From NCBI RefSeq assembly GCF_963675165.1, contig NC_087382.1:372001-436000 (forward strand): a stretch of DNA of 64,000 bases. Direction: 5' to 3'. The stretch's first letter is position 1; each line of letters begins with the position of its first letter. Under the pieces are notes generated by a model. The model had not been told where the DNA came from, did not search any database, and saw only the letters and a program-made list of their open reading frames with translations. The position numbers were made by a program, and so were the translations under genes. The DNA comes from Halichondria panicea. Its lineage: Eukaryota; Porifera; Demospongiae; Suberitida; Halichondriidae. Positions 7,061 through 59,251 of this stretch are shown here, one piece after another.

Positions 7061-7085
7061 CTATCCTTTTCTGCACGATAGAACC

Positions 7086-7402
7086 TAGTTGGGCGGAGCC
7101 CGACCGTCCCTGACGGGAGGTCGGGTTGCAAGCCTATCTGGGATTTGTTCTAGCGCCACTATAGTGGCGCCCTATCAGATTGCAGCATTTTTCACGTGGC
7201 TTGGTTACACTTCCGCTTGCATCTAGTTGCAAAACCGCATGCAGTATTGCTGTGCCATCCTTGTGGTTTACACGTCTCAAGTCGGTTAACACCCACTTGA
7301 GAATAATAATATTCATAGCAGTACTACATAATGCGCAGAACAAATCCCAGATAGGCTTGCAACCCGACCTCCCGTCAGGGACGGTCGGGCTCCGCCCAAC
7401 TA
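7086..7402. mobile_element. Mutator-like MITE, 317 bp, 9-bp target duplication
   Basis: The terminal inverted repeats are 66 bp long and identical, beginning TAGTTGGGCGGAGCCCGACC. The element is flanked by perfect 9-bp direct repeats GATAGAACC (7,077-7,085 and 7,403-7,411). A 9-bp duplication is the hallmark of Mutator-like transposons (established knowledge); membership of that superfamily is inferred, because no transposase is present. It is nested inside the 4-kb fold-back element. An internal 18-bp perfect palindrome GCGCCACTATAGTGGCGC lies near 7,153. Confidence 0.9.
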
Positions 7403-7414
7403 GATAGAACCATA

Positions 7415-8880
7415 GATACACGAAAGAAAGGATAGGCAACACCAAGGGCGTATACAGAGAAGAGGGCATGCAACTCACTGTGTATCCTACGTACTCATCC
7501 GACTTCGTATCAGAGACCGGATATGCTAAAAATAGAATCCAGTATACGGACGTGAACAAGTGGGCGGTGTTGTTTACGGAGTTATAATTATGGGCGTGTA
7601 CATCAGAGCTGCCTAGCTAGCTAGCTAACAGTGCAGTATTATTTTAGAGAAGTGTCATGACCAGTCCTAGTCCAGCCAGGTCCAAGACAACCCCTTCGAG
7701 CATGAAGTTGAGTGCTGGGCGCATTGTTAAGAAGTACCAGAGACTCAGGAAGACAGATTATTGTACCTAGGTTTCATCTTCTTGGAGTTGCAACTGTTGG
7801 ATGGTTTGCCTTTGCCTTTGACACTGCTAGTACAAGCCATACTGCTGCTGAGAACTAGTTTTACTATGCTGCAATCGAGCTAGCTAGCTGGCACAGATAT
7901 AAAAAATACTTTGATTTACCTTGTGCGGTCAAAGGTTACGCGTGGGCGTTTTTGTGGGCAGTTCTATATAAAAATAGCTCAATACGAAGTCGGATGATTC
8001 TGAGAATGGGGCGAGTTGCATGCCCTCTTCTCTGTATACGCCCTTGGCAACACCCAGCACTTCCGTTGGATGAGGCGAGTTGCTAAAAAGGGGCGTGTAA
8101 TGAGCAAAAAGGGGTGTGTACACTCAAAATGCAGTAAAGATATTAATAGTTTTTAGTATTATAGCAAACTGTGCTCTTGAGGAGACACCAGATACACTTA
8201 GACATAGGCTATTAATCTTTTAGAGCTACTATATGCAAAGTGATGAGAAAGTGAGCTCCAAAGGGGGTGTCAGTACACTCTACAAACCATAACAGGTCTG
8301 TTCCCAAGTCCTTCAAATGCCATCTCTTCGATCACACAATACAGATAAAGATACTTGTGTTCCACTTTCTAATACCTAAACTGTGTCTTAGAGCACTTTA
8401 AACTACATTACCATGTACAGTAAGAGCAGGAGAGGTACGCAAACTTTCTGGACTTCGGACAAACGTTTCATGGTGCTACTACTACTTCACTGCATTGAGA
8501 GCTGGAAAATATGCTTTGTTCCATGCAGTTATAAACACACTTTAATTCTGTGAAACGTACATGTTATAAAATTATTTCATATTGGAAATATAGGTACATA
8601 AACTGACAAATCGGTATTTTTTCACACAAATCAAGCTGAATAAAAGAAAGCTCGGCACTAACATAGCAACTGTAGCTATCAGTAGTGCTGGGTGTATGTG
8701 TGCATGATGCCTGATTGCTTTGAATTTCTCTTTTAGGCCCCCTACGAGAAAAATAAGCAGATATAGGGATCATTGTGTACTTTCTTGAGTGCAACTCGCC
8801 TCCAACCAGAGGTGTGACGTCACACACTGCATTTACCTAGCATCACGTGGGGCGTTGCCTATCCCTTTCTTTCGTGTATC
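7415..8880. mobile_element. Inverted-repeat element nested in the fold-back
   Basis: GATACACGAAAGAAAGG at 7,415 is mirrored by CCCTTTCTTTCGTGTATC ending at 8,880, each next to a GGCAAC/GTTGCC word. A second inverted block, GGGCGTATACAGAGAAGAGG near 7,448, is mirrored at about 8,018-8,045. The structure implies two superimposed inverted elements. No coding potential was recognised. Confidence 0.6.
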
Positions 8881-9716
8881 TACTGTATGATAGAACAAAG
8901 TCAAAGAGATATAATAATAATTTATATGGTAAGGTTAGCTCTATTAGTTGACAAAGCATCAAAGAGACTGCATGCATGCAAAGACTCTGTATCAAACTAG
9001 CAAAAATGTTTGCATTATTATTCTATCAAAGTGAAGGAAGATTTACCTTTCAAGTTACTCATGCTTTACCTATAAGAGTTAAATGCTTTGATGCAGCTCT
9101 GCAATGTTGGATCTGCCTGGAAGACAATCGATGTTGTTGCATAGCAATCGCCATATTTGCAACTTCGTGCTTACTTTCTTAGCCAAATTTCAGGACAAAA
9201 AGTATAAAACACACAATTTCAGTGCAAAGACAACAATTTATATCTTCCTCCATGTTTTCCTATACATAGAAGATGTAAATTGTTGTGAGGATGCTCCAAT
9301 AGCATCACTGGCTCAGCTCTCAAGTAATGTGGAATCACAGATAGAAGTCAAGAGAGAAACTGTTGTATCATGGTGGAATCACAATAGCAGTTTCCTTTCG
9401 GGACAAGGGTAATCTTGGACAGTCCTGACCAATTCGGGACAGTTGGCACCTATGTGCTTCGTGCTGCATGAGGCCTGATTCATAGAATGACATGGTGCAG
9501 TGTGATGGCTGTGAGACCAGTGGTATACTACTGTACATGCATGAAATGTGTGTGTGAGGAGAGCTGCATTCAGTAACTGGCACTGCATAGACTGTGAAGA
9601 CCATAGAAGACTGTATTGGTGTATTTTGAGAATGCACTGTCACATAACGTTACCGCTGTTGCGCTGTTAATGGGGGGCCTAAAATTTTATGACACCGGGC
9701 CGCCCTGTGTAAATTG

Positions 9717-10359
9717 GTGAAACACTCCGCGTTTATGATTTCGCGCTCGCGAATATTTTAGTTTTTACCGTACTCAGGTTGTATTTCAACTGTTTCTAGC
9801 TCTCCTATCCACTATCGATCACTCAGAAGCTGGGAGGTACTCTAGAGAAGTAAGTTTACACCACTGACAAGCTCTAAGTCCCTTGTCTTTACTCTGTTTT
9901 TACTTTTTGTTGAGTTTAGCTTGAAATACTCCATGTCAACTTTTCTCTTTCCCTGCTGTGAAACCTAAACAGCAAAGGACATTGCTTGACTTGGTTATTA
10001 TGTATCTAAGTGCTATATAGGATGGTTTCATGCTATGGATAAGCTGTACTGTTCATAAACGTTTGCAGTATAGTCCTTCAAACTGCTTTAGTATACTTTT
10101 AGAGACACCACGGGCCTTGACCTCCCACGACTTCATAGTAAGAGCTATTCCTTCTTGTATAGCATTTATTTGTTTAGTGATAGTGGCTGCGTTGCTTAGT
10201 CTACCTTTTAGAGCTAAATTCTCTTTACTTTTTAGAATAATCAACATTAACAATTTCACCATTTCTATGTACAACACATTGTATGGCAGCAAGATAGGTA
10301 ATGAGCATGCTGACTATAAATGTAGTTTTAGCCACACCCTATAACGCGGAGTGTTTCAC
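9717..10359. mobile_element. 643-bp MITE-like element
   Basis: Perfect 17-bp terminal inverted repeats (GTGAAACACTCCGCGTT) bound the element. No transposase frame is visible, and no convincing target-site duplication was seen. It abuts the fold-back element, adding to the repeat nest between the kinase and protease genes of copy A. Confidence 0.7.
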
Positions 10360-10619
10360 GCAAACATTTTCGTTTCCAATCCCCTTCCTTTGGTTTTCTC
10401 AAATTGCTTCACAATTATTTTTTTATGTCGCGTCCTAAATAGAGGTCAAATCACAGCCTCGATTCCAGGCCGCAAGAAATGTAATTTAAGCGTCCTATAA
10501 TCGAGGACAGTAGAATAACCTCCAATTAGATGCGACCCTCTAAATATGCGACACCAGGACTTCAACATAATTTTTCAACCTCCAAAAGAAACGACCTTTG
10601 GCTTCGTAAAGTGTCGCTT

Positions 10620-10825
10620 TAAATCGAATAAGTACGGTAACTCGAGAACGAAGCATTTTTTGCAAATCCACGAATTAAAATCCAAGTAAACAAGACTAGA
10701 AGCCTATAGAAACTCTTACTTGCACTTGATTCATCCTTGAGCAGCTGTAGCAGTCTACACAGACACACACAGACACACAAACACACTACCGTATACCTTG
10801 CTTGCGCATGCGCACCGAGGCATTA
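10620..10825. repeat. Dispersed repeat, inverted copy at 26,385-26,585
   Basis: The stretch from CTCGAGAACGAAGC through an ACACAC-rich run to GCGCATGCGCACCGAGG reappears in reverse complement at 26,385-26,585. It ends just before the start of the dead protease gene and may have carried in new upstream sequence, replacing the promoter seen in copy B. Confidence 0.7.
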
Positions 10826-10847
10826 TTACCAGATGCTGAATTTCAAG

Positions 10848-11670: not shown

Positions 11671-11850
11671 AACTTTAAACACACAGAACATACCTATTAT
11701 ACTTATCAAATCTGTCCTTTTCTCAACTCGTTTTTGTACTACGTGTATCAGTTTCACTTTGTGTTGTTATTGCAAAAGATAGTGTGTGAAATTCTTATAT
11801 AATATTATATATAATTATATAGATACGGAAACCTGATCTTAGACTAGCTG

Positions 11851-11906
11851 AGCCTCGATTCAAGGCCGATTAAAATACGTATTTTAATCGGCCTTGAATC
11901 GAGGCT
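11851..11906. repeat. 56-bp perfect palindrome
   Basis: AGCCTCGATTCAAGG at the left is exactly mirrored to the right, with the axis at ATAC/GTAT. The direct word AGACTA flanks both sides. The matching place in copy B (about 45,398-45,410) lacks it, so this is an insertion. Its ends resemble those of the TAGCCTCG-type elements elsewhere in the window. Confidence 0.85.
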
Positions 11907-12535
11907 AAGACTATAACTATGCAAATAGACTATACGACATTGTCAGTAATCTGGTGCAGTTGACACGGTTTCCTTGCCAATTATCATATATCAATGACGA
12001 TTTCCTTAATTGCTGAACATGTCAAATGGGGATATTAGCATACCACAGTGCTCTGATTGTTTGATGTGAAGTTGTTGTGTCTCAAAAAGAAAATTATTGA
12101 AATTAAGTCTATAGAGCAGCCCTATAACAATATGTATGGCATTACAGGCATACCAACACAATACCACCAACATAATTATGGATAAATACGATTATTTTGC
12201 TGTTGTTTTGACATCATGATCAGGGATTAACATGCCCCTACTTTTTGGCTAAGATGTCCGACTAGATTTGTACGTTTGTACTGAGTGTAGACACATTATC
12301 ATATGAATAGTTTTGTAAGGCGTTTGTAACATACATAAAATTAATGTCTAATTCCAGATGTGCTGTAACTCATGCAGTGACTAAGGCATCCTGTATTCAT
12401 AGTCACTTCCATCACTGGTTTGTGGTAAGACCATCAGCTAGATGAACTAATTTCAACAAACCCAATAGCCATCAATAGGTCACTGATTATGCTATATATA
12501 CACATTATATCACATCATTCGAGGCACTTAAATTG

Positions 12536-12584
12536 TAGTCTCGCGGACCCAGACCCTGAATATATCGACTGGTCCACGAGACTA
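12536..12584. mobile_element. 49-bp micro-insertion, Mutator-like ends
   Basis: The ends are TAGTCTCGCGGACC and its near-perfect inverse. It is flanked by perfect 9-bp direct repeats CTTAAATTG (12,527-12,535 and 12,585-12,593). Outside these, CGAGGCAC and GTGCCTCG form an older inverted pair, so it appears to have landed in an earlier small palindromic remnant. Confidence 0.85.
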
Positions 12585-12773: not shown

Positions 12774-12798
12774 TAGCCTCGACCCCAGGCCGAGGCTA
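12774..12798. mobile_element. 25-bp micro-insertion, Mutator-like ends
   Basis: The insert runs from TAGCCTCG to CGAGGCTA, with only nine bases between. It is flanked by perfect 9-bp direct repeats CTATAGACA (12,765-12,773 and 12,799-12,807). It is the smallest member of the TAGNCTCG family seen here. Confidence 0.75.
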
Positions 12799-12809
12799 CT
12801 ATAGACATA

Positions 12810-20243: not shown

Positions 20244-20283
20244 TAGTCTCGAATACTAAGGTTGAGGCGGGTATTCGAGACTA
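20244..20283. mobile_element. 40-bp micro-insertion, deletion derivative
   Basis: The ends are TAGTCTCGAATAC and its inverse. Flanking 9-mers are TCTTGCCGT and TCTTGCCGC (8 of 9 identical). Read in reverse, its first 25 bases equal the first 25 of the 625-bp element at 58,618, followed directly by that element's other end. Confidence 0.8.
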
Positions 20284-22343: not shown

Positions 22344-22580
22344 TTACCCCAACTGTACATTTACTGTTACCAAGTTAGTTACCTAGTTATTTACTGACTG
22401 TATACAGTTGTATATATCCAATTATGATTATGTTATATTCAGTTTCGCTTGACAATTATGTATAATTCCTGCGTTCATTTTGTGTATTTTTATTTATATA
22501 TTATGGTCATATTCTTGTAACCGTGACGTTTTAAAATGACATACCTCTGTTCGACACACCAAAAGTTACAGCATGTTTCA

Positions 22581-23564
22581 GTTTTGACACAGTAAAAATG
22601 ACATATATTAATTTGACACCCGTGTTAATGTGTTAATTTTTGGGAAAGCAGTTTGACACGCGTTTGCATGCTAAATTAACACCTTTCATTTATGTGTGTG
22701 CATGCATGCATGCATGCATGGAACGTACCCTTTAAACGGGCGCCTCTGAGGAACAACATGCAAACTTAATTTGTTGAGGGCCAAGTATACATAATTATAC
22801 TATCAGTTATATAACTGAGATTTAGGTATATATAATTATTGCATGCATGTAGTTAAGTTATAGCCTACCATTATAGCCTACCATGCATCATCTCTTTGAT
22901 CTACTAAAAACTACTGATTTATAGCCTTAATTACCTATTATATATAGAAGTAGGTCGTTACTGCATGGTAATATAGGGGTTTCACGTACACAATTAAGAT
23001 AGTACGTGCATGCATTATAGTTAATGCATGGTTGTACACTGACAGGCATGCATGTCTCCAATAATTATTTCATATAGGAGTTACAGCAGCTATACCTAGA
23101 CATGTTTCTGCTACCTATAGTCAAGGTGTAGCAACTAACATGTACCTGTCGCAATCATGGACAAATTGCCGTGAAGTTGTCTATGCTAATGACCGACTTA
23201 AGATGCTGTGAAATCAAATTTGCAATGAATAACATGGTGATGATTACCTTAATGTTACTATTATAGACGAGTAGTGGACTATGAAGTACATCAGAAAAAA
23301 AGAAAAAAAATTTATCATAATTTTTTAATTGCATTTTATTATTAGCGCATACTTAATTTAGCGTTAATTACAAATTCGCTAAAATTTGCTAAAATTAGTA
23401 CCCGTTTATAATAGTAACAAATAAGGTATCACTAATGTTACAACTGCACACATAAATGAAAGGTGTCAATTTAGCATGCAAACACGTGTCAAACTGCTTT
23501 CCCAAAAATTAACACACTAACACGGGTGTCAAATTAGTATATGTCATTTTTACTGTGTCAAAAC
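22581..23564. mobile_element. 984-bp fold-back MITE with about 120-bp ends
   Basis: The terminal repeats (22,581-22,702 and 23,443-23,564) begin GTTTTGACACAGTAAAAATG and match in inverse with about five differences. Each arm holds several TTTGACAC words. The spacer has no coding potential. No target-site duplication is clear. Confidence 0.85.
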
Positions 23565-23599
23565 CGGCACATGTGTGCTGATTGTATTGTGCTAAATTA

Positions 23600-27282: not shown

Positions 27283-27790
27283 GTACAATTGGTACAATAA
27301 TTATTATACAATAGCTGTGCAATTACATTGTACAGATGCTCCCCTGTGTACTGTATGACACCTGGTACAATACAATAGCTGTGCAATTACATTGTACAGA
27401 TGTTCCCCTGTGTACTGTATGACACCTGGCACAATACAATAGCTGTGCAATTACATTGTACAGATGTTCCCCTGTGTACTGTATGACACCTGGTACAATA
27501 CAATAGCTGTGCAATTACATTGTACAGATGCTCCCTTGTGTACTGTAAGACACCTGGTACAATACAATAGCTGTGCAATTACATTGTACAGATGCTCCCC
27601 TGTGTACTGTAAGACACCTGGTACAATACAATAGCTGTGCAATTACATTGTACAGATGCTCCCCTGTGTACTGTAAGACACCTGGTACAATACAATAGCT
27701 GTGCAATTACATTGTACAGATGCTCCCTTGTGTACTGTACGACACCTGGTACAATACAATAGCTGTGCAATATTATTACATTGTACAGTA
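27255..27790. repeat. 64-bp minisatellite, about 8 units
   Basis: Units of exactly 64 bp (ACAATAGCTGTGCAATTACA followed by TTGTACAGATG and CTGTRTGACACC) start near 27,307, 27,371, 27,435, 27,499, 27,563, 27,627, 27,691 and 27,755. The last unit is diverged. Overlapping minus-strand open frames of 63 codons are by-products. Confidence 0.95.
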
Positions 27791-28235: not shown

Positions 28236-28634
28236 TCTCTGTGTGCATGCATGCCAGTATAGGAAAGGCAGGCAATGAGTTACTAATTCATTGCCTGCAC
28301 GCTATGCTATAGGGCCGTTGATTGCAGCTAGTGCTTACAGTTGTTATAATTTGTTTCCCAACAGCACAATCACTGACAATAGCACATTACCTTCCATAAT
28401 GGCTAACTGTGCTGCTAACATCATTGCAACAATACAGCAAGGTAAAATGCAGTTTTAGATTGCATGCATATATATAATTATGCAACAGGAGTGCAAAATC
28501 ACGGTTGAAAATTGGCAAATATTATTACAGGAAGAAGGCCTACAAGGAATCAAATTATATGTTCGGAAGTAAGTATAATTATAATTGGTTTTGCTGTCAC
28601 ATTAATTATTAAATTTTCACAAGCATTAAATTTA

Positions 28635-29217
28635 GAGTATGTCGCTGAACTCTGTCAGACATCAAAGTGCGTCAGGTAAAAGGGCGTGTAATGCACGAAC
28701 AAAACAAGACTGATTCAAACTAATTACACACACTAACAGATGACCATAGGACTACTATCCAGCGAAAACTTGGATAGGCCAAGTCGCTTCCAGTCCGAGC
28801 AGTGATCATTAATTTGAAAAAACTACAGATTTACGCCAGAACGTACACCGATCCCCGTTTTGCCTAGAGCTAACTGACACAAGTACAATCTAGATAGAGT
28901 GCAGTACAGCGTGGAGTGGAGCAATTCCCAGTCAGGCAACCCTGCAAAGCGGAGAGCTACACTTGTTTCTTTGTGAGGGTTGTAAAGTGCTGAGTCAGCA
29001 ATACTCCAGCTATACAAGCGCTAATATGTATACGCTATAGCTTGGAAGCGACTTGGCCTATCCAAGTTTTCGCTGGATAGTAGTCCCATGCATGGCCATC
29101 TGTTAGTGTGTGTAATTAGTTTGAATCAATCTTATTTGTTTGTGCATTATATACACGCCCTTTTACCTGACGCACTTTGATGTCTGATGGAGTTTGGCGA
29201 CTTACTCTATTAGGTCA
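28635..29217. mobile_element. 583-bp MITE with TA target duplication (Tc1/mariner-like)
   Basis: Long terminal inverted repeats of about 155 bp begin GAGTATGTCGC on the left and GAGTAAGTCGC on the right and share CAGACATCAAAGTGCGTCAG. TA flanks both ends (28,633-28,634 and 29,218-29,219). A TA duplication is typical of Tc1/mariner relatives. No transposase frame is present. Confidence 0.85.
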
Positions 29218-29219
29218 AC

Positions 29220-35523: not shown

Positions 35524-35625
35524 TCCCTTGTATTAGGGTGTCCCGTAGTAATTAGAACGAATATTTCCCCATTTAAGGTATGTACACGGCCTCGATTCCA
35601 GGCCGAGGCTAGCTCTGCAGCTAAA

Positions 35626-37306: not shown

Positions 37307-43595
<6,289 letters not shown>

Positions 43596-44187
43596 CAACT
43601 CACGTAGCTGTTACTTTTTACTGTAATAACTGACTATCATGTGTGCTTCATTATGTTACATTTTATTATGTAGAATAATAATTATGTATTTTTACTGATA
43701 GGTTTTGCACTAATCATGCGGCCACTGTTTCTTAAATATTGGCCATAAATAATTATAGTGATATCCATGTTGCAGGTTAATTTGTCTTCATACATTAATT
43801 GATAATTGTGTGTACATTACAAACTTAACGATATTATTATAGCTTTCTCTATATTCGATATTCATGATCAAAATTAAAATAATTATAATTATAGCATGAC
43901 GATTCCCAAGAGACAGCCTCACTGCTAAAGCCATATATACACATGACTGTGCTCTCTGAGGGTACAATGCATTAATTATTGCACACACGTGCACGCGTGT
44001 GTACAGGTGTACAGTAATTCTAGGAATGTGTGGGTGGGTGGCTTATCACTATTATCAATCATATCATCAATGTATTATGAGTGGGTGTTTAATTCCTGTG
44101 GGTACAAGAAACGTCACTGCGGGCTAAATTAATATTGCATAAAACTGCTGCCATAATTACCAGATTCTAAAAATTGAGAATTTCAAG
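43596..44187. other. Spacer between kinase B and protease homologue B
   Basis: Shared with copy A up to 43,835. From 43,838 to about 44,152 the sequence is unrelated to copy A, and homology resumes at ATTACCAGAT. The upstream part of this 0.3-kb segment presumably holds the promoter of the protease-homologue gene; I see no TATA box that I would defend. Confidence 0.5.
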
Positions 44188-45219
44188 ATGCAATTTTATG
44201 TAGCAGTAGTTGTCTTGTGCACTGCACACTGCATGCAGTACAGTGCTGCAGCAGCTATCAAAGGCAGTGAACAATCATCTTCTTTGGGATGGGTAAAGCA
44301 CTTGAGACTTGGAGATGTCATCTTTGCGAAGCCTCCCGATATAAAGGAAATGTCCGACTACATTACTGAAATGAATTACCAAGACGATGGTACTGCTTGC
44401 TTTGGGTCGGCTGCGACTACTGTGAGCGAAGACGGTCCGCTTATCCCATTTATAGACAAATCAAGCAGACAAAAGCGTGATTACGAATACGAAGATTACG
44501 ATACCCAGTCCTATGAATGTTTGAGAGAAGTGGAGAGTGTTTACTATTATCCTGAGTATGCTGTCGGTGGATTGGACAACGGGTGCACAGCTTTTCTTGT
44601 TGGACCTTATCATGCAATGACATCTGCAAAATGTGTGTACGACTCTGACGAGCGAACGTGGGAGCATAATCTTGATTTCTGGCGAGCAAGGAATGGCTCA
44701 GGCTATCTGCAAAGAATGGAGTGGGAAGAAGTGTACATCCCAAGGGAGTTCTTCAATCAAAGTATCCAGTCTGACGATTTTGATTGGGCCTTGATCATTT
44801 TAAACAAATCTCAATTTTCTCCCGTTTGGCATTCAGTTAATTACTGTCCGAGTAAATGCCCAGGACGTCACGTCACTTCTTACGGTTATGGAAATGAGAA
44901 CATGATTTTGAAAGAGTGTGAGATCAGCGAGCAGGATTGCTTTAAGCGAATGGAAATGCAGTGTTGTCAAAATCCCGCTGTCAACTTTCGTGGTGGCCCA
45001 GTCTTCGATGGATATGATTTTTATGGCTCTAAAATTCCACCTGTAGTTGGTATAAACACTTGCTCTAAGGAAGCTGACGATGAAATGGAATTGGAATCAG
45101 AGCAGAAAAGTGAAGAAATTACGCCTGACGTCGCAGTAAAGTTTCACTCTGACATGTTTTGGACTGTTTGTATGTTAATGGAGAACAGTGGGTACGATCC
45201 CAACTGCAAGAAACTTTGA
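44188..45219 (+). CDS. Secreted serine-protease homologue, probably catalytically dead, 343 residues
   Basis: Single exon starting MQFYVAVVVLCTAHC, a signal peptide. RQKR at 94-97 is a furin-type processing site, so residues 98-343 would be the mature chain. NGCTAFLVGPYHAMTSAKCV resembles the region around the catalytic histidine of S1/S1B proteases (compare xTAAHC), but lysine 148 replaces histidine. DDFDWALIIL keeps the aspartate (199). NFRGGPVF stands where GDSGGP is expected, with arginine 268 in place of serine. Two of the three catalytic residues are therefore missing. The fold resembles PRSS23/PRSS35- or V8-like proteins. N-glycosylation sites NGS, NQS and NKS are present. It lies 0.6 kb after a receptor kinase and was duplicated together with it; the other copy (10,848-11,670) is dead. 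Confidence 0.75.
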   Translation: MQFYVAVVVLCTAHCMQYSAAAAIKGSEQSSSLGWVKHLRLGDVIFAKPPDIKEMSDYITEMNYQDDGTACFGSAATTVSEDGPLIPFIDKSSRQKRDYEYEDYDTQSYECLREVESVYYYPEYAVGGLDNGCTAFLVGPYHAMTSAKCVYDSDERTWEHNLDFWRARNGSGYLQRMEWEEVYIPREFFNQSIQSDDFDWALIILNKSQFSPVWHSVNYCPSKCPGRHVTSYGYGNENMILKECEISEQDCFKRMEMQCCQNPAVNFRGGPVFDGYDFYGSKIPPVVGINTCSKEADDEMELESEQKSEEITPDVAVKFHSDMFWTVCMLMENSGYDPNCKKL

Positions 45220-47396
45220 ACACACGTTAATATTACATGAACAAACAGCACATAAATTATAGCTATTATACTTATCAAATCTGTCCTTTTCTCAATGCTC
45301 GTTTTTATACTACGTGTATCAGTTTCACTTTGTGTTGTTATTGGAAAAGATATAGTGTGTGAAATTCTTATATAATGGATACGGAAACCTGATCTTAGAC
45401 ACTATTATGCAAGTAGATCAACCTATTACATTGTAGTATTAATGTATTTCCTTGCCAATCACATGCATGGGTTAATGAGTATATCAATGGCGATTTCCTA
45501 ATTGTCACTGTAGTTATTTCTGAACATATCAAACGGGATGTTGACATGCCACAGTGCTATAGTGTACTGCATGATACATACTGGGACAGATTTATCAGTT
45601 GTGAAGTTGTTGTGTCTTGAAAAAAGAGATTTGTTCATTGTATTGAAACTAAGTCTAGAGCAGCCCTATAACAATCTGTGGCATTGCAGGCATACCAACA
45701 CAACCACCAACATATGGACAAACATAATTACTTTGCTGTTGCTTTCATTGACATTATGATCAGGACTAACGAACCTTTGCTAATGTTTTCTAGGATTTCG
45801 GGATAGTGGCCTAGACTATACAGCAGTCAAACTCTCACTAATAACAGGGTAAGCTTAGTGCATGATGAGCAGTCATGTCTTTAATCGTTGTTTGTTGTAT
45901 CATTATTTTGTAACATACTGAGAATCTATAATTAGTACCTCATTGCTATCAGATGTACTCTGACTAGTATACCTGTGCACCGATCTGACTAACACATCCT
46001 GTATTTGTAGTCACTTCCAGTTCATTGTGGTTGCTAAGGTAATCCACTGTCATGCATAACTCTGTGGTCTGTGGTAAGACCTTTGGCTAGTCATAGGAAC
46101 TGATTTCAGTAACCCAATAGACCATCAATAGGTCACTGACAGCTGTTGTGGGATAACCAATTCAAGCTATGCAAGTACATCAATCAGCATTATAGAAATA
46201 GCACAATTTAATATGCTAAAATTTTTATCCACAACTTAAATAGTCGACCTACCGGTATTTAAGGGTTGTCGTTTGCAACACGACGTTTATAGCTATTATA
46301 TGATACTGATTCATGAACTATTAATCATAATTAATTTTTGCTCAGTGAGATTTTCTGCATGGGAGAACACACTGCTAACACGATGACGTATAGGGATGTA
46401 CACTATTAACGGTTAAACCGTCACTCCCCATGCATGCACATGTGCTTTCACAGCAAAAACACATGTTATATGAGATGCATCAACGTATTTTAGTGTTAAA
46501 AATGACAGAAATATATGTCATTTCTACATGAAATTTCAAAAGATGTTGACATGTTTTATGTTACTGTAACGAATGTGTTTTTACCGTGTTGATATTGTCT
46601 ACCACAAGATCAGACGATGCATTTGGCTACTCGTGTCAACTTTGATCTACGGGTAACAATTACCGGTATGTAGAAGTTTAAGTATTTTGCATTTCCTGTC
46701 AATGACTACTAAGAAAATGTCCAACACCAGAAAAATTGTATTCATATAATTATTATTATTGATCCCCCCACAAAGAAAGAGGGTATGCATGTCTCAACCT
46801 TGCCATAGCTAGCTAGGTACGTGTGTTGTTCAGTCTGGTCTCTGCTACCCTATTGTCAATGTAGTCTGGGGGCCAATAAAATGTGCAATAAACAATGTTT
46901 GCTGTATTAATTTCAATAGTCTTACAACATGTTGGGATGCATGAGCACATTAATTTTACCTGTATGGATCTGCACTAGATCTAGTATTAATTGAAGATTT
47001 AAAGTTTCATGTGTTGCATAATCCTCTGGAGCCGCCCCCACATCACAGACAAAAATTAATTATAAGGTCAAAGTTCATGGACATATTCCTGTCTTTAGGC
47101 TCCTTGTACATAGACGGGCACGCCCATCTAGTAGTTACACTGAAGAATCAAAGTATAGCTAGCTCTTGGACATGCTGTTTGTCTGCCACTAATCTATACT
47201 AGTAATTCCCAGGCTGAAGACAGTCATCAGAAAAGGTGGGGCTCTTAGTGTGGTTTGCAGAGGAAGGGGGACTCCAGCCCCCAAAGCCCTGCCCCCTCCC
47301 TACGCCCTGCATGGATGTGCATACACAATTTATGATAATTGCACACACTGAACAACGTACCTTTTTTCATCATAACAATGCCATGCCACAGAAAAG
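45220..47396. other. Intergenic; end of the duplicated block
   Basis: Homology with copy A continues, with gaps, to about 46,140 (copy A 12,480). After that nothing is shared. GTAGTCTGGGGGCC near 46,862 matches one end of the inverted element at 51,179. Around 46,480-46,600 short ATGACA-type words recur. No gene is supported. Confidence 0.5.
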
Positions 47397-50300
47397 ATGT
47401 CTGACTATCTCACAATAGAAGATCTTAAGAAAGTGTACTTGGTCACGTTTGATGCTCGAGTTAAGTGGCGAAACATCTTGCTTGTTCTTGATGTATCCCC
47501 GGCTACTATCAACAACGTAGGTACGAAATGGCGTGACAATCCTGATGACTGCTACCGTGAGGGGCTATCAGAGTGGCTAACAGGTGGGGAGAGAAGCTGG
47601 GAAGATGTGATGGCGGCATTGTCTAGTCCTATTGTGGGCCACAGTGACATAGCTAGTACCATTGAGAGAGAACATGTACAGTCTACTGGTGCAAGCAATC
47701 CTACTGATGTGAAGTCAGAAGGTAAGCACTAAATAAAATGCACTGGAATGCACACATTGCTTGATTTTCTAGCTGCTATAATGTTCCTCACCCACTTTCC
47801 CCACATCTACATGTAATACACACAAAATATTCCACAGTTAACCAAAATCGCCAAAAAATCAATGGAGATTTAATAATTTTCCTGGACGAGCCACTCGGTA
47901 AAGGTGCATTTGGAGCAGTCTTCAAAAGCAGCTACAAGGGCGAGATTTGTGCAGTCAAAGTCCTGCTTCACGATGCTATGGAGATGCAGGCAAGTATTGC
48001 AGTCAGCAAAAGTGAAGATGCTACCGATGCAATTGATCGTGAGAGTGATTTTCTCAAATCGATCCAGCACCCAAACATTGTTCAGTTTTTATCGACTGCT
48101 AAGCATCCCAAATCAGGTGGTACAATCCTTGTTGTTGAGCTGATGGATTGCAATCTGAGATCTTATTTTTCTGGTCTTGATGAAGAGTCCCTAACTAGCG
48201 AATGTGAAATTAGCCTTTCCAAAGACATGGCTTGTGGTCTGGCCTACATTCACAGCAAGCAGATAATCCACCGTGACCTCTGTGGCGATAACATCTTGCT
48301 GAAGCTTACACTGCCAGTGCCTGTTGCAAAGATTTCCGATTTTGGTATGTCACGGCTATACGATCCCTCCAAGCTTAGCTCCACCCTCACAGCCATTGGT
48401 CAGCGTAGAGGGTATCTACCTCCCGAGGCATATCGATTGGAAGAGGAGAATTACGATAATAGCCTGGATGTGTTTTCCTTTGGGGTGATTGTGGCGCAGA
48501 TTGTTTGCAAGTTGGAGACGATCAAATCAGCCAAGGATCGATCATTCCATGTTGCCCAGATCCCTCACACACACAGGTTGAGGAAGCTTATCGATAATTG
48601 TTTGCAAGAAGACATGACAAGGAGACCATCTGCCAGGGACATCTGTGAGTCTATTTTGTGTTTACTCTTCCGAATAAGTAATATACATGAGTACGTGTTT
48701 ATTAATGTGATGTTGTAAGTATATATAATTATATCATCTCAGATGATTCACTGACAGGAAGCTCGGACCCAGTGGAGACAACAAAGAGGGAGTCAAAGGA
48801 CACTCAACCAGTCGAGAAGGTGTGTACATGATGTAGTGTGTGAATGAGATTACAACAATAGTTTTGTACTGTAACATGCCTGCCAACCTAGATTGTGCTT
48901 GAAAATTTTCTGCATGCTATTGAGACCAATTAAAAAATGTCTGCATGGTATGTAGAGCTGATGATGAAGACATAATTATTAGTAGTTTTTACTTTGTGCA
49001 CTTCCTGCCACCTATAGCTCATTGGATTCCAATAATTATTACTTCAAGTTTGCACCTATGTGCATGCATGCAGTATTTAAAAATCAAGCTTGTGCTTGAA
49101 ATTAGACCCCTTATATAGCTGTAATACCGGTAGTCTCGCAAGCCAGCCGTTACAATGTATCGTATGGCAAATTACACAGGAGCCTACTTGTGCAGCAGCT
49201 AGTGCTGTTGGATTGATAAGTGGTTGGTTAGTGGTTAGAGGACCGATGTGTGAAACCACATATTAATTAGATTTGCCAAATCTAGCTGTGCAGCTGTGCA
49301 GTTTCACAACTTACCAAACACTTCTCAGGCACTTAGATTGCCACTATATATTAGTGTATTAGGTCAACACAACTCTGTATACGGTCCGCGAGACTAGGAT
49401 ACCGGGAGGAGAGACCATTTTGAGGGATATTCCCGGTAAGACCGGGACAGTTGGCAGGTACTCAAGCCCCGGGCCCCAAAGCTCCCCACTGGATCCGCTA
49501 CCACTGGATTTGCCACTGGCACTGGTGGCCAGTAGTCTCATGGATCAGCCCCCTCCTAAGAAGGGGTCTGTCTTGAGGTCATTTCACAGTGGAATGTGCC
49601 AGACCAATGGAATGTAATCAATTCCTGATCTTACGCCCCCGCGTATTTGTTAATTGTACAAAACGTCAAGTGCAGGCATCTCTCTCTCTCTGAAGAAGGT
49701 GCTTCACATGTATGTATTTTGCCTGTGGTGCTAACTCTGTGCCCAAGGACCCCTGCTTGGCTTGCTTATGCTGCGTCTATGTATGAAGCGTTTACCATGC
49801 GTAATGCATGCATTAATGATTATCCAAATGCGTTGAGCAACGTGCAGTTCTTTATTGCCTCCTATAATATCACCTGACTAGAATAAGTCAATCTGATTGA
49901 GCTGCTGGAATTCCAGCATGTGCAACAAAACACATCAAGAGTGCTCAGACCCCTTCTTAGGAGGGGGCTGGTCCATGAGACTAGGTGGCCAGTAGGCTTG
50001 TCAGTGGAATGACGATACATTTGCACTGTCTGTAGACAAGTAGCACTTTCTTGAATCGGCCATCGCTTTTACAGAAAATTTATTGATAAGCATATTCATT
50101 GCATAGCTATAGCAACAGTGACGTCAAACAGTAGTTATAAGCATATTCATTGATGAAGCATGCATGACAGTATAGCCTCGATTCCAGGCCGCTCTCAATT
50201 GAGAAAGACGACCTGGTATACACTGTCTGCGCATGCGTTAATTGCCCCTAAGAATCTCGGGGGTCGAGATATCTTTAACAGTAAATTATTGTATATTTTA

Positions 50301-53300
50301 CAATGATTTCACTGCACAAATCATAACAAAATAACACAGATACTTGCAACATTTATATGGCCTAGACTAGTGACTAGTTTTGTTACCTCTTTTCTTTCTT
50401 GTTGTGATTGCTTCTACTTCTCTTCTGCTCTTGCTCTATAGCGTCTCCAATTGAACGCTAGGTCGACTCATAGCGTTCAATTGGAGACGGATCGGCCTGG
50501 GAACGAGGCTACTCTTGCTCACGCTCTCTCCAGTGTTGAAAAGTTAGGTTTTGTCTTCTTTTGTACTGTGGTAGAGTGGTGGGCGTTTTCTGTCAGTACC
50601 GACCAGCTCTGGTAAGTCTACTTGCTTCCAGACGCTTGTTTGATGCCATCTCAATAAGATCAGTGCTCCTCGTATGAGCCTAGAGTTGTGATGGTGATTT
50701 CTCTCTCTAGCTAGCTAGCTCTTGACACTAAAAGTTTAATCAACCACATGGGTGATCATAGTACAAAAGGCTAATTGATAAATTACAAAGAGTTTTACTA
50801 ACAAATTTTAGCGGGTAATTTTCGTGGGGTAAAATATTCATTATTTTCGTGGGCAGGCTGACCTCCACGAAATTTTAACGTAGGCGTGGCTTATCGGAAC
50901 GTAGGAATGCCGTGCAGCCACGAGACTAAACGAAATTTTTACTCACGAATACCACCGTTTCTCGGGTTGAACGAATTTTTTACCCGAAACTTACCCGTTA
51001 TACGGTATTGAATCCACCCACGCGCAAACGGTGGTTACCAGGCCCTCTAGTGAGAGGGGCTTGGATCGAGGCTATAGCATGACAGGAAATAGCTCTAAAC
51101 ATATAGTCTGCAGTTGAACTATGGCCAGTTATCAGTGTAGTGATATATTAAACATTCGTTTGACTTTGCCTATAATATTAGTCTGGGGGCCAGACCTTTT
51201 CTCAGAGGGGGGAGGGGGAAGAGAGAAAGAGGTCTGGAGACTCTTGCAGCACTTCTAGAGCACACGGAAATGTTGCAAGAGTCTCCAGACCTAATCCTAG
51301 CTCTCTAGATTTTGCCCGAGCTATTAGGTCTATAGCCCCCAGACTACAATACAGTAGACTCTCTTTAATCCGGTCACCCTTGGGACCATGCAGCTTGGCC
51401 GGAATAGCGAGGTGGCTGCAGCTCAGGAAATAGCCGCGGCTTAAAAACGACCTTACCTCGAATGTAATGACTACTTTTGCGGTTCTTGTCTCGAGGATAA
51501 TATAGGATAATTAATTATTTTGTTCTCTATTTAAGTGTAATTCAATTTTATTTGCTAAACCACACCCAAAACGTCATATCCGGCCGTAATACACGTATAA
51601 AATTACATTGAAAGCAGCCCTGTTTGGGACAGCCAGCACTGGCCGGTAACTAGACTCGCCAGCCAGCCCTTCCTCGGGGTAAGGGACTGGTGGATTGCCT
51701 ATCTGAGAGTTGTGCCGTTACCTGAATCTGGGTAATGACCAATCAGAGTGCAGTATCAATGTCATGTGACATTCTTACGCCCACAGTATTGCTTAGTTAA
51801 TTTCTTTGTGGTAGAATGCATGATAATAACAAAATAATGGATGGGCAAGACTGTGCTAGTGCAAGATTAAGCGACCAAGCAGAGCTTATCAATCAAGCTG
51901 CAATTGAGACAAATCCTCCAGTGACTTTAGTATGTAAATGATTTGCACCACTTGTCTTACATTGGAGAAAATCTTTCTTTTCTGGGGATGGAAAGGGCTT
52001 GACAGTAGCCTTCTACCACCAGTCTCAATGTTTCTTGGTTTCTCTGCCACAAACTAAGCAAGGGGAGCTTATTTGTAATTGTGTAGCTATTTGCAACCCA
52101 CGCATATCAGACATTACAAACCACATGATGATGTCATACATGATGTCATGCAACTCATTAAAATTCCACCGGCACAACTCTCAGATAGGCAATCCGCCAG
52201 TCCCTTACCCCGAGGAAGGGCTGGCTGGCGAGTCTAGCCGGTAACCAGAATAGCGAGTGGCCGTACTTCAGGGTGAGTTTTGTGCAGTAAACATAATTAT
52301 AGCTAGCATTCCGTGCCAAGCCAAATGGCCGGTATATCGAGGTGGCCGTACTTCAGGGAGCCGGAATAGCGAGAGTCTACTGTATACCTATAATATAATA
52401 GATCAGTTGTATATGCATGGAATGTGCTGAGCTTGTAATTACCTTGTGACGTCACGGCTATAGATGCCGTCCGTCGTAGGCATTATACATTATAGATCTA
52501 TACACAAGTCATATAATTATTGTAGAATTCATGAATTGAGACTTTTACAGTGCGCATGCTAATGTGTCCCAGTAGAAACAATTTCTGCTGAATTTGCAGT
52601 TCTTTCATGTGCAAGTTTGTTGTAAGTCAAAGGAGCGTACGTTCAGTTCGATCTATATAGAGATAGAAGAAAGAGGCAATAATTATGACTGGACATATTA
52701 TATACATGTTCCAAGGGAAACATAAAGACAAGAGATAACCATCTCCTTTCATATAGACTTCCTATAGATCCAAGCAAGAGCTGAATGGCTAGCAGAAAGA
52801 TTTTTTCAAGCCAGGTTCTTGCGTCTCTAGGAAGTCTGCGGAAAGAAACAGTTAATTGTTTTGGTAAGCTCGCAAAATATTATTAATACTGCTTTTTTGT
52901 CTATATCTCTAGAACTGAACAATCTTTTAACTTGCAACAAAGACTAACGCGCACTTGGAGAACTGCAGATTCAGCAGAAATTGATAGCATGCACACAGTA
53001 CACAAATTTCAAGTCATAAATTTTGCATAGATCTAACGCCCACGCGACGGCGGCATCCATGCAGCCGTGACGTCATAACAATTAGCTTTTACAAGCTATT
53101 TATGTACTTTCCTTTAGCGAAAATGGTTGCTTGTTAATTCTCGTTTTGTTGTACATGTGGAATGTTCTACTAATAATATTCACGCCTCATTTCTAATTCA
53201 ACGATCTCCAGCAATGTTCCCTATACACAGGGGACAGATAGAAATTGGCATGCATGCAGTCTGAGAGCTATAATATAGTTGATCCATTATAATTATTCAT

Positions 53301-54330: not shown

Positions 54331-54413
54331 GTACTTATAATTATAGTTAATTGTTATGTTAATTTAGTTAGTTTCCTTGTTCATTGATGACTTAACAACG
54401 ATTGATATTTACA

Positions 54414-54590
54414 GTAGACTCTCATTAATCTGGTCACTCTTGGGACCATGCAGCTTGGCTGAATAGCGAGGTGGCTGTATCTCAGGAAATAGCCGCGGCT
54501 TAAAAACGACCTTACCTCGAATCTAATGCTTTTGCGGTTCTTGTCTCGTTATAATTATGCTAAACCACACCCAAAACGTAAGAAAACTTG
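54414..54590. repeat. Partial pogo-like element, left end only
   Basis: Begins CAGTAGACTCTC after TA and follows the left part of the element at 51,352 (shared GGGACCATGCAGCTTGGC and AGCCGCGGCTTAAAAACG). The right end is missing. It lies less than 100 bp after the Kelch stop codon. Confidence 0.75.
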
Positions 54591-54599
54591 CCAGCACTG

Positions 54600-55775
54600 G
54601 CCATAAATTACATGGATATGAAACGCCTCTAGATTACAGTGATTCCAGATAGTATCCGGAGTTTTGCTGGGAGAAGGATTGTCTCGCAGCTACCAGAAAA
54701 TGAAAGCTACTGGCAAGCAAAGAATCTGTTGTCACAAGAGTCTACGATTGAAAGCTGAAGTGACTATGATTGGCTTTAACTAGGTCTGTAAAGTAAGTTT
54801 TAGTTATGATTGTTCCAGTTAGAACGTTGTAGCTGATTTGTGGAGCTGAAAATGGCTATATTCACTCTTGTTTATTAAAAACATCGGCCGTACTCGGATC
54901 GCTGGCGCTGCCTTAAGTGTCAGTTGATCTGCTGTTTGAAAAGAATTACTGTGTTTATTTTTTGTGTAGTAGTTAGCCAGGTCATTGTCGATAGTAAAAC
55001 TCTGTCATTGGGGTCTGGAAGGCATTCTCTACATAGATTTTTCATTATAATGTCTTAAAAATGTCGTTCTTCGAACTTTTGTGATTCTGTGATTCTTTAC
55101 TCACTAATTTTGCAGCTATACCCGTCGTTTATCTAGTCTCTTACCCCTGACCAGTGTGGCATTCTTCTGTTGGCAGTGAAACAAAATAGAGGGTACACGT
55201 TGTTACGTACTGTCAGTTTCCATCAAACATTTTCTTGTTGCGAATCGTACACTTCAGTTACCACTCAACTTTGTATATACTCGAAGTTGTATTTTTTGAT
55301 GTAATGTGTGCATAGCATGTATGCGTATGCGTATACCCTATTTCCTACTACCATTGACTAATATTCGTGTTTAATTTTTCTTTTTGTAGTATTATGACCA
55401 AACTGACAATTCAACTGCCGAGTTTCAGCAATGCATAACTGTGATGTTATTCCGTTCCATCCGTCCACGATTCCAGAAGAGTCAGTGGGCGACTGTCATC
55501 TGTATCTGTGGAATTGTGCACTCAAAAACTAACTCCCCTCACCCCCTTTCAAATGTTCTGTTTGATGTATAGTGCTCATATTTTCTTGCTGCATTAATTA
55601 ATTGGAAGCTTTTGAATATAATATATCTACGTGTACCAAGTCTAACAGTGCATGGCCTTTTGAGATGAGATGATAGGAGACTATCAAGGTTTTCAACCTA
55701 TCCCTCAAGTCATAGTAGATTTAATTCCCCTAGGCCTTGTGCTTGTGCCTTTGTCCATTGCCCGGCCATGCACAG
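54600..55775. other. Intergenic, no gene recognised
   Basis: No convincing exon, hairpin or repeat boundary was found in this stretch. Confidence 0.45.
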
Positions 55776-55784
55776 CTCGGTCTC

Positions 55785-56021
55785 TAGCCTCGAGACCAGC
55801 CGTTCGTTATCTGAAAGAACGCCTGGTCAAGTTCCAATGTAGCACTCGTTCTAGCTGAGTCAGCGTTTTATAGCATCATAATGATATTCATTGGTAATAC
55901 ACCTTGGGCGGACCTTTGCGGGCAATTACCAGTCCAAGAAATTCCTGGACCATAGAACGAGTGCTACATTGGAACTTGACCAAGCGTTCTTTCAGATAAC
56001 CAACGGCTGGTCTCGAGGCTA
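55785..56021. mobile_element. 237-bp Mutator-like MITE, 9-bp duplication
   Basis: 69-bp terminal inverted repeats, two mismatches, beginning TAGCCTCGAGACCAGCC. Perfect 9-bp flanks CTCGGTCTC (55,776-55,784 and 56,022-56,030). Confidence 0.92.
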
Positions 56022-56030
56022 CTCGGTCTC

Positions 56031-56984
56031 AGATATTAAGAGTAGCTAGCTAATGGAGGGGTGGGGTCACATGAAGAAAGTGCATCAAACACGGTGAACT
56101 TAGACAAACCCCTCTGGTTACATCCGAGGCAATCATCATCCAGCCCAAACGTCTGTTTAAGGAGGAGTTTCATATCCATGTGACTGACCTGAAAACCTGT
56201 ACTAATATTTGGGCGCATGCGCAGTCTGCAATTATTGTTTGTCGGTTAGCGAAAGAAGGCGTGTCTTTAATCGATAGAAACTACTGTTGTTCTCCGGCTC
56301 CGCTTGTACACTCAGTACTCGACTCACTGTTGTATCATTTTGTTGATCAGGAGGAAGCCTCTGGATTATTATCAGTGAGTGCAGACACCACTGTTTTATA
56401 CTGTAGATGAGTTTTTCCTTGTACATAATTTTGATTGCTTAAATCTTATTTCACACTCTACTAGTACGTTGCACATGTGTTGTAGTACTGTGTGTATTTA
56501 ATTAATTCGAAGTGGCTATTCGTCCGGCACTCAACATTACGCATGTGCATGACCTTTGTCCTTCGAGTTTGGCTCATAAACTATCAGTAGAGTTTCGCAA
56601 GCAGACTTACTTGTCCTAGAGGGAACGTTCTTTCCATACATAGCTACAATAACCCATAGGCATAGGTCCAAAGTTATAAGCTATAGGAAATACCCTCTCC
56701 AGCTATTGTTATACCCCTTTGAGTTTCATCAGTGGCCTGCCCGGGGAATCCTTAGCCTATATAATAGCGATATAATTACATACACTCACAATTTGACCAG
56801 GAAACCTTTTTTTTTCTTTAAAAGCACATAGGGAAAACTTATGAGTTAAGCATGACATTGGCGACAAAACCATTGCTTACATTTCGGACTTTTCGTTTTA
56901 AGAGACACACAACAAAAATTAAACCAAGAGAGGCATGAATCACATGTGCACATAATAGAGTTTTCAGCATCGTCATCTATAGCC
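56031..56984. other. Intergenic, no gene recognised
   Basis: Two short open frames overlap at 56,036-56,426, but neither has a family I recognise. No repeat boundaries were seen. Confidence 0.4.
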
Positions 56985-58135
56985 TTCGAACACACTCTGC
57001 AATACCACACTGCATTTTTTTAACAACTTCTATAACTTGTTTCAAAGCAGCCCAAGCATCTTCACTAAAGTATTTCTGTACGCTTTGCACACAAACATTC
57101 TTATCCAGACATGAAGCTGGAATTTGCTCCGGTTTATCTCCACATCTTCCTCTTCTACAAGCCTTGTCTTTGCCAGCACAGCTTCTTTAACTTGGCGGTC
57201 AACAAACCATGATAGAATAACTACAAAAAGTCACAATTGCCGTGGCAGCCATAGTTAATGTACCTTCATCCTTGTTAGAAGTAGATTTATTCAAAAATGA
57301 CACTGGCTTCCTAACTTAAACCTTTTGCATGAAGGTAAGCCAATTACTGTCTTTCTCTGCTCCTTTTAAATGCCCTTGTTTCTTGATTACAGGAAAAAGC
57401 TTGAGGCTACCTATGTCTATATGTATAGATGTATGTACTTACTATCACTAATAATTACTATACCACATGCATGCCATGGAATTTAAATTCAATTTAGTTT
57501 TGCATGCTAATTAAGTTACATACCACAACTTTTGTCTGTCTTGGAACTATGAATACCACATTGGGGACTGTTATCATGCAGCAGGAGCACTGCAGTCATG
57601 ACCTCTATCCTTGGTGAAATCTTCACCTTCTGGAGTTTCATCTAGTGATGGTTACACAATAATTAACGCATGTCGACTGTCTCGATAACAATAATAGTAT
57701 AATAAAACGGTACAATGTATATACTGTGATGTACACTCCTTACAATGTGGCTTTTGATTATAACATACAAATGTACCAGAAGTATCTTCACCTATCACAT
57801 AAACAATTGTTTCTTTGCCCTAGCTTGATCCATGTGTCCCTCGAACTCTTCATAGCATCATAGCGTCTCCTGAACACAGCCATGCATTCCCACCTCTGAA
57901 GCAAGCTAGTGTGGCTAATTCTTGAGCCATTATGTAGAACTTTTGATGCTGGGATAGCATGGACTTTCCTTTCTCACGTGCAATACTAGTAACCTGTATG
58001 CCATGTGCACAATTTGTGAAATCAAACGCACCTTAAAGAAATACTTAACTTACTTCAACAGATGACACATCTGTGGCAGGTGTCTTCTTATTCTTGAACG
58101 TTTCACGGGGGGCATGTAACTTGCAGTCCATCTAG
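56985..58135 (-). pseudogene. Relic of an uncharacterised, probably transposon-associated gene
   Basis: Minus-strand fragments in shifting frames read KKQGHLKGAEKDSNWLTFMQ (about 57,390), RLVEEEDVE (about 57,150), KPEQIPASCLDKNVCVQ then KYFSEDAWAALKQVIEVVKK (about 57,120-57,020), and REKGKSMLSQHQKFYIMAQ (about 57,980). The second and third groups resemble a zinc-finger-associated module common in sponge repeat proteins. Several frameshifts and stops separate them. The parent family is uncertain. Confidence 0.35.
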
Positions 58136-58617
58136 GAGCTACACCAATAGCACTGTAATAATTATTATAGTGCACACCCATGTCAACTCAACACACAAAA
58201 ATGAGCACCCCTCCGATTTCAACAAAACTTGGTATATAGATACCTTACCATAAGTTATATAACTACACCCAATTTTAGCCCCATATGTCATATGGCTTCT
58301 TAGTTACGAGCCCTTGAAAACACTCAAACATTTACAAATTACGGTGACCCACCTATACGCTTCTTAGAGCATAACTTCTTCCGTGACAGATAAAAACTGT
58401 ACCACCGTACTCCTTATGATATAGTCTTTCAGGTGACGTGCTTAAAGGGGGTGGGCACTCGGTCAAAGGTCATTATTGTAACCCTTAAGTAAGCGTTACT
58501 CAAAAATGGCGTCTTTTTTTTACCAAACTAGTTTTTAGGTACTATTTTTTACCAAACTATATTCGGTATCTATGTCCCTCATCTTACGCCCTAGAGATTT
58601 GGGACACTATAACACAT

Positions 58618-59242
58618 TAGTCTCGAATACCCGCCTCAACCTAAAAGCTTGAGTCTGGTCAAACTCACATTGTGGTTTGGTTCAAGTGTGTCCAGGAATT
58701 TCTTGGACATTTAATTGGCCACAAGTGGGTGTGGAACATGAATAAAATTATAGTCTACATGAATATCATTATAGCTAACCGCCACAGCAGCATGGATTGT
58801 TACTAGTAGAAAGAATTAGCCCCAGACATGCAGAAGGCGACGTAGGAAAATTCATGGAGAGAGTTGTAAGGATATGATACTAGAACTCTCCAGACTAGCA
58901 ACAGGACCTTTGGAACACCTTGTCGAAATTAACAGCCTAAATGCTCATTTATGTGAATGTGACCGTCGACCATGGTTTCATGCCCCTCTAGCTCTGTGCA
59001 ATGATGGCTTCAAGCTCAGTGTTTTTCTCGTAGGCTTTCAACTCCTAGCCTTAATTGATACACTGTCTGATATAGCCCTCTAGCTCTGTGTATGTTCTGT
59101 CCCTAACATGCGGTGGCTTGTGGCTTTATCACTATGCTTGTGGGCGTGTAGTCCACTTGACTTTGCTGACTGTGCAGAACAAAGTTCATATGTGAGTTTG
59201 ACCAGACTCAAGCTTTTAGGTTGAGGCGGGTATTCGAGACTA
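58618..59242. mobile_element. 625-bp Mutator-like MITE, 9-bp duplication
   Basis: 53-bp identical terminal inverted repeats beginning TAGTCTCGAATACCCGCC. Perfect 9-bp flanks ATAACACAT (58,609-58,617 and 59,243-59,251). The identical ends suggest a recent insertion. The 40-bp insert at 20,244 derives from this type. No transposase; a 69-codon open frame inside is not recognised. Confidence 0.93.
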
Positions 59243-59251
59243 ATAACACAT

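Follow-up and report, generated by a model that had tools for sequence, protein, structure and literature searches.

Miniature inverted-repeat transposable elements (MITEs) are short and non-coding, and carry a terminal inverted repeat (TIR) together with a target-site duplication (TSD) of fixed length. In the 64,000-nucleotide stretch of contig NC_087382.1 analysed here (positions 372,001 to 436,000; hereafter the window), which belongs to a eukaryotic and probably animal genome, we observed non-autonomous DNA transposons in a dense cluster; they have 9-bp duplications, and their ends mostly begin with TAG. These elements are like MITEs in general in being short and non-coding and in having a TIR plus a TSD of fixed length, and unlike them in that members of 25-75 bp are unusually short and that a hairpin skeleton is common to many ends.

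Mutator-like elements (MULEs) have TSDs of 8-11 bp (PMC6446971), and in most arthropod MULEs the first three bases are G/C-rich, a feature that does not define all MULEs (PMC13359780). In the active MULE Muta1 of Aedes aegypti, duplications are 8 or 9 bp long, no target preference is apparent, and derivatives exist in which common ends enclose interiors of diverse origin (PMC5225508). The elements of the window share with Muta1 the 8-9-bp duplications, the lack of an apparent target preference, the diverse interiors of non-autonomous copies and a short imperfect palindrome at the tip. The TIRs of Muta1, however, are 145 bp long and combine nine subterminal tandem repeats of 12 bp with a palindrome of 10 bp at the tip (PMC5225508), whereas here the TIRs measure 38-69 bp in the best-kept elements and contain one hairpin, which starts some 12 bp inside the tip and whose arms differ from family to family, and no transposase was seen in the frames scanned. 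Tm1, a Mutator/Foldback element of root-knot nematodes, has likewise composite terminal repeats, TSDs mostly of 9 bp and MITE-like members (PMC3169594), but most of its TIR consists of 13-15-bp units in variable number, and its hairpin is a histone-type motif located between the TIRs, outside the ends (PMC3169594). Merlin elements, which have TIRs of 24-462 bp, are similar in their 8-9-bp duplications and different in their conserved termini, starting with GG (PMC8101967), where TAG is found here.

TAG-ended elements and their 9-bp target duplications

We list 15 elements for the window, with no strand assigned to any of them:

7086-7402: element of 317 bp; TIR of 66 bp, identical at 66/66; exact 9-bp TSD GATAGAACC
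11850-11907: palindrome of 58 bp, self-complementary at 56/58; flanks AGACTAGCT / AGACTATAA, matching at 6/9 by eye
12536-12584: palindromic element of 49 bp; exact 9-bp TSD CTTAAATTG
12774-12798: element of 25 bp; exact 9-bp TSD CTATAGACA
20244-20283: deletion derivative of the 58618-type TIR, 40 bp; TSD 8/9
35587-35611: relic of 25 bp, built like 12774-12798; no TSD seen
49131-49396: element of 266 bp; TIR 11/14; TSD 7/9 (TAATACCGG / GGATACCGG)
49533-49983: element of 451 bp; TIR of 38 bp, 37/38; exact 9-bp TSD GGTGGCCAG
50171-51076: element of 906 bp with TATAG ends; diverged TIRs, 17/20; exact 9-bp TSD GCATGACAG
50437-50511: hairpin of 75 bp nested in 50171-51076; right end TAGCCTCGTTCCC; outer left end lost, so that TATAG now stands beside the exact duplication; TSD CTCTTGCTC
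50881-50928: palindrome-like relic of 48 bp with TAG ends, inside 50171-51076; no abutting TSD seen
51179-51346: element of 168 bp, TAGTCTGGGGGCCAGACC...GCCCCCAGACTA; no TSD recognisable
51651-52236: element of 586 bp; TIR of 69 bp, 67/69; exact 9-bp TSD GCCGGTAAC
55785-56021: element of 237 bp; TIR of 69 bp, 67/69; exact 9-bp TSD CTCGGTCTC
58618-59242: element of 625 bp; TIR of 53 bp, 53/53; exact 9-bp TSD ATAACACAT

About 5.9% of the window is taken up by the 13 elements counted; those of them beyond 49 kb account for about 32% of the interval 49.1-59.2 kb. An earlier interpretation made from the letters alone (the sequence-only reading) had named eleven insertions, nine of them with perfect and two with near-perfect 9-bp flanks. 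All nine were present and exact, and the other two were confirmed at 8/9 (20244-20283) and 7/9 (49131-49396). That most elements begin with a shared TAG motif was also borne out, the commonest start being TAGNCTCG, with departures at 7086 (TAGTTGGG), 49533 (TAGTCTCA), 50171 (TATAGCC) and the left end of 50437 (TATAGCG).

Do 9-bp repeats occur at such ends more often than chance allows? We ran the check by scanning for exact direct repeats that abut an 8-bp inverted repeat (spacing 20-1500 bp, up to one mismatch); six repeat regions were masked, and 50 dinucleotide shuffles of the unmasked window served as control. At 6, 7, 8, 9, 10, 11 and 12 bp the scan returned 20, 18, 5, 10, 0, 2 and 1 pairs, against shuffle means of 11.8, 3.42, 0.80, 0.28, 0.10, 0 and 0, the maximum at 9 bp being 2. 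TAG or TATAG starts were found in 8 of the 10 pairs at 9 bp, in none at 8 or 10 bp and in one at 7 bp; the 7- and 8-bp pairs also exceeded the shuffles, with a TAG end in just that one. At 11 bp, both pairs correspond to elements 12536 and 12774, read from one base deeper inside. As an outside control we used 200 TAG[TC]CTCG(9-39)CGAG[GA]CTA palindromes from viral contigs (two patterns, 85 + 115 stretches), of which 199 had full flanks (121 distinct): exact 9-bp flanks were seen in 0/199, and the best match, in one, was 7/9.

When exact TAGNCTCG ends were paired blind to their flanks, 8 pairs resulted, five with 9/9, one with 8/9, one with 7/9 and one mis-pairing of 50173 with the inner end 50511 (2/9), which arose because the elements are nested. 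Seven exact TAGNCTCG ends, including 14645, 26278 and 33680, were left unpaired, no partner with a duplication being found, and a partner search over 17 left and 17 right ends gave no duplication-bearing partner for 10454, 14645, 26278, 33680, 35587/35611, 50928, 51179 and 55134. A partner for 35587 at a distance of 3.5 kb with a 2-mismatch flank was discarded, the ends being dissimilar. A relaxed end motif occurred at 28 sites in the window and at 0-15 in 60 motif-shuffled controls; some of the 28, being partnerless, may be chance matches.

Perfect 9-bp duplications also flank two elements of the window whose ends are unrelated to the TAG type: one of 602 bp at 7444-8045 (duplication GGCAACACC, ends AAGGGCGTATACAGAG, TIR 34/35) and one of 457 bp at 59306-59762 (duplication ATATACCCC, ends CAGAGGAGG, TIR 16/18). 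The nested 7086 and 7444 elements lie in a large imperfect inverted repeat at 5884-9601, several pieces of which match at 76-81% and which has GGGGGGCCTA-rich palindromes close to both ends. A 2202-bp pair at 6767-8968 (flank TGCATGCAT) was rejected, its flank being nearly self-complementary and located within a larger inverted repeat.

An empty site and a nested insertion

The window contains a diverged duplication in which 1-5571 matches 38560-43840 at 95-97%, and 10821-12486 matches 44152-46139 in pieces whose identity falls from 95 to 78%. In it, 65 bases at 11845-11909 of copy A are missing from copy B (about 45400), and these 65 bases contain the 58-bp palindrome with TAGCCTCG-type ends. 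An empty site was thus observed in one case, and a flank match of 6/9 at 11850-11907 is what would be expected of an old site. Moreover, the insertions occurred at different times, since the diverged element 50171-51076 (17/20) hosts 50437-50511 with its own exact TSD. Taken with the shuffle excess and the viral-contig control, the empty site gives good support to transposon insertion with a fixed 9-bp target duplication, as the sequence-only reading had proposed.

In a trypsin-like gene of the segmental duplication, 219 bp of copy B are missing from copy A, which is interrupted by an early stop at a point where the frame of copy B continues (open reading frame 44188-45219).

Terminal repeats, interiors and coding capacity

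TIR identity reached 97-100% in 5/7 TAG-type elements longer than 100 bp that were measured, namely 7086, 49533, 51651, 55785 and 58618 (51179 was left out of the measurement). The TIRs are 53-69 bp long in 7086, 51651, 55785 and 58618, and 38-69 bp across the five best-kept elements. As a group, the terminal repeats fall into several families with a common skeleton and differing hairpin arms. No tandem array overlapped any of the 13 listed elements checked (50437 and 50881 being covered via their host 50171-51076), and thus the long TIRs of repeated units that characterise Foldback elements were not found.

Interiors were compared by blastn (word size 7, E up to 1e-3) for 9 elements, 8 of the TAG type plus 7444, against the window. 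Outside themselves, the TAG elements matched nothing but the 20244 deletion product, a 35-bp stretch at 86% common to 55785 and 58618, and 44 bp aligned with the right-hand edge of the 51179 query, which overran the end of the element. With so few short matches outside each element, the earlier observation that interiors share little holds at the blastn sensitivity used.

Pfam scans covered 10 long frames and 101 further frames of at least 75 residues, 111 in all; frames shorter than 75 residues, two listed frames and 42918-43595 (a near-copy of 4648-5325) lay outside them. The matches were to kinases, a trypsin-like protein, a septin/AIG1 GTPase, kelch and pieces of a crypton-like recombinase (DUF3504). 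With TIRs, a 9-bp duplication of fixed length and no transposase coded in the frames scanned, the elements have the make-up of non-autonomous, MITE-like TIR DNA transposons.

A hairpin motif inside the ends

Inside the terminal repeat we found a hairpin motif, not mentioned in the sequence-only reading, with the layout CCAG-N-arm...arm'-N-CTGG in 9/15 ends. In these nine, the distance from the tip is 11-13 bases for the start of CCAG and 33-40 bases for that of CTGG. Within the TIR of 7086-7402, for example, the hairpin reads CCCGACC-GTCCC...GGGA-GGTCGGG. Single-sequence folding of 18 such ends plus 7444 gave z values from +0.07 to -4.9, with 7/18 ends below -1.93, the 5% point for 150 random pieces of the window. 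Because this folding was unconvincing alone, we carried out arm-swap tests. Under a fixed rule (CCAG and CTGG with one mismatch allowed in each, and the eight bases inside each taken as arms), we tested 15 ends of our own choosing, to which 49131-49396 and 50171-51076 each gave both ends. Pairing of the own arms amounted to -47.3 kcal/mol compared with a permuted mean of -31.9 kcal/mol, and the best of 50,000 reached -47.6 (p = 2e-5); five of the nine ends ranked their own partner first, and 51651 ranked its own second. An earlier swap test, for which positions were partly chosen by eye (7086, 51179), had given p = 2e-5 with 10 ends and 6e-5 to 2.2e-4 with two subsets of 8. In a stem test on 11/15 ends, in which the non-motif bases were shuffled, the total of 42 compared with a control mean of 25.2 and a maximum of 37, and 0/2000 controls reached 42. 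The base between CCAG or CTGG and the arm was unpaired in 7/9 ends by eye (C/T three times, C/C twice, C/A and A/A). The hairpin signal is therefore an across-family pattern from a small sample.

Tiny members

Nearly half of the listed elements (7/15) are only 25 to 75 bp long. The first 13 and last 25 bases of 20244-20283 are identical to those of 58618-59242, a match by which this member clearly reads as a deletion product with breakpoints within the terminal repeats. The other tiny members were probably made by the same deletion process.

Searches elsewhere and other features of the window

An exact 16-base end pattern gave 3 matches in viral contigs (G+C 0.495 to 0.636, one site each), and a 19-base end pattern matched once among genomes of bacteria and archaea, within a reading frame that looks thioredoxin-like by eye; we judged all of them to be chance. 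A hairpin pattern with one fixed spacing had no match, and a protein search of plasmids with the GTPase frame returned none. A 31-bp palindrome, TAGTCTCGTAGGTANNNTACCAGCGAGACTA, recurred in many of the viral contigs in either orientation and with a variable middle, and had A- or T-rich flanks in those viewed. A literature search of open-licence PMC papers, which does not extend to Repbase, yielded no paper that we recognised as describing the hairpin end structure, which is weak evidence of novelty.

Among the remaining features, a repeat of about 140 bp is shared by 51350-51493 and 54410-54548 at 92% and starts near CAGTAGACTCTCTTTAATCCGG, which may resemble pogo/Tigger-type ends. Long-armed inverted-repeat elements lie at 22572-23573 (127 bp at 94%) and 28633-29209 (168 aligned columns at 89%), and tandem arrays at 60421-60901 (96-bp units; this array also aligns with its own reverse complement), 27306-27771 (64-bp units) and 1697-2022 (66-bp units). 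A crypton-like tyrosine recombinase fragment (DUF3504 + QRICH1) is located at 61362-61961, outside the elements; one more DUF3504 match and one Phage_integrase match occurred among the 101 further frames. Neither a scan of the window with Rfam at the gathering threshold nor a tRNA scan returned a match.

Discussion

We consider it likely that the locus is a cluster of non-autonomous, MITE-like cut-and-paste DNA transposons moved by a Mutator-like enzyme, with paired inner palindromes in their ends and tiny members made by deletion. In part the cluster is ordinary; what is unusual is the hairpin skeleton in many ends, with family-specific pairing arms. Several observations weigh against this interpretation. 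No DDE transposase was found in the 111 window frames scanned with Pfam, and the superfamily is therefore a guess. Pairing of the arms is weak at 49131, 50173 and 12536 (own partner at rank 3, 4 and 5 of 9), and 6/15 ends are without one of the motifs and were dropped from the arm-swap test. What remains is 9 ends of 8 elements in a single window, 50173 and 51074 belonging to the same element. Individually, just 5/11 ends have p < 0.05 in the stem test, and 10/18 have p > 0.05 in single-sequence folding. At the right end 56021 the stem is weakened by changes (z -0.43 vs -3.64 for its partner), and the arm palindromes could be mutational in origin.

How far do other explanations account for these data? 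It is hardly conceivable that chance or a low-complexity artefact explains the 9-bp flanks: tandem arrays in the window do yield spurious pairs at 8, 10 and 12 bp, but masking removes most of these and still leaves 8 in the 9-bp TAG class. A more serious alternative, which we regard as possible although on the unlikely side, is that the inner palindrome is a by-product of quasi-palindrome correction, in which template switching turns imperfect palindromes into more perfect ones, and that no hairpin is selected for. The elements are indeed rich in palindromes and their ends are clearly prone to deletion and rearrangement; yet such correction should have mended the unpaired base beside the arm in 7/9 usable ends, and the placement of CCAG at 11-13 and CTGG at 33-40 bases from the tip across the 9 usable ends also speaks against it. 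We find it very improbable that the tiny palindromes of 25-58 bp are independently mobile. Two 25-bp loci are built alike, 12774 with an exact TSD, and among the six palindromes of 25-58 bp (11850, 12536, 12774, 20244, 35587, 50881) the TSD is exact in two and 8/9 in one; against this, 20244-20283 is plainly trimmed from a longer end, the second 25-mer (35587) is without a TSD, and a 25-bp duplex would, we infer, be too short for uniting two ends in a known transpososome. Equally far-fetched at present is a bolder idea, in which ends are recognised as extruded hairpins in a superfamily of eukaryotic DNA transposons that conserves structure instead of sequence at each end, related enzymes can therefore serve many families and tiny palindromes can move as folded single strands.

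As to the enzyme, the sequence-only reading had taken the 9-bp duplication to point to a Mutator-like transposase. This stays plausible in that 9 bp falls within the 8-11-bp range of MULEs (PMC6446971); it is qualified by the lack of a transposase domain in the scanned frames and by Merlin, which also fits. Another superfamily with 9-bp duplications, Merlin-like or an undescribed group, is an unlikely but reasonable candidate for moving the elements. Merlin makes duplications of 8-9 bp (PMC8101967), and the TAG or TATAG starts found here are unlike the G/C-rich first three bases of most arthropod MULEs (PMC13359780); but no end here begins with GG as Merlin ends do (PMC8101967), 9 bp is inside the Mutator-like range (PMC6446971), and Muta1, an active animal MULE, combines 8- or 9-bp duplications with derivatives of diverse interior (PMC5225508). 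A Mutator-like enzyme is thus our best guess, unproved, and we do not assign the elements as members. The Muta1 derivatives are also a precedent for the earlier idea that one enzyme mobilises many unrelated elements, which stands in part: the terminal repeats form several families that differ in their hairpin arms, and for this reason several related enzymes are as likely as one.

For the Mutator-like interpretation we propose the following mechanism, of which the ends, the duplication and one empty site are the observed parts. A DDE transposase encoded elsewhere, most likely Mutator-like, would recognise terminal repeats mostly beginning with TAGNCTCG, excise the element and join it to the target at cuts staggered by 9 bp, and gap filling at these cuts would produce the 9-bp duplication. 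The imperfect inner palindrome may offer the transposase a structural or two-fold-symmetric site to bind, and would be preserved even as its letters drift. Tiny members would be later deletion products, arising if the two facing palindromic ends collapse in repair that follows a cut or accompanies replication; the match of 20244-20283 to 58618-type ends shows such deletion for this member, and we suppose it for the others.

If the hairpin skeleton fails, the locus is still a tidy example of a dense MITE cluster. If the skeleton holds genome-wide, it would be an instance of compensatory changes at eukaryotic cut-and-paste transposon ends. This would explain the frequent shrinkage to tiny palindromes and provide a ready test set for the limit of transposon reduction, and would point not only to recognition of DNA shape, but also to a sequence-independent way of finding the families of one superfamily.

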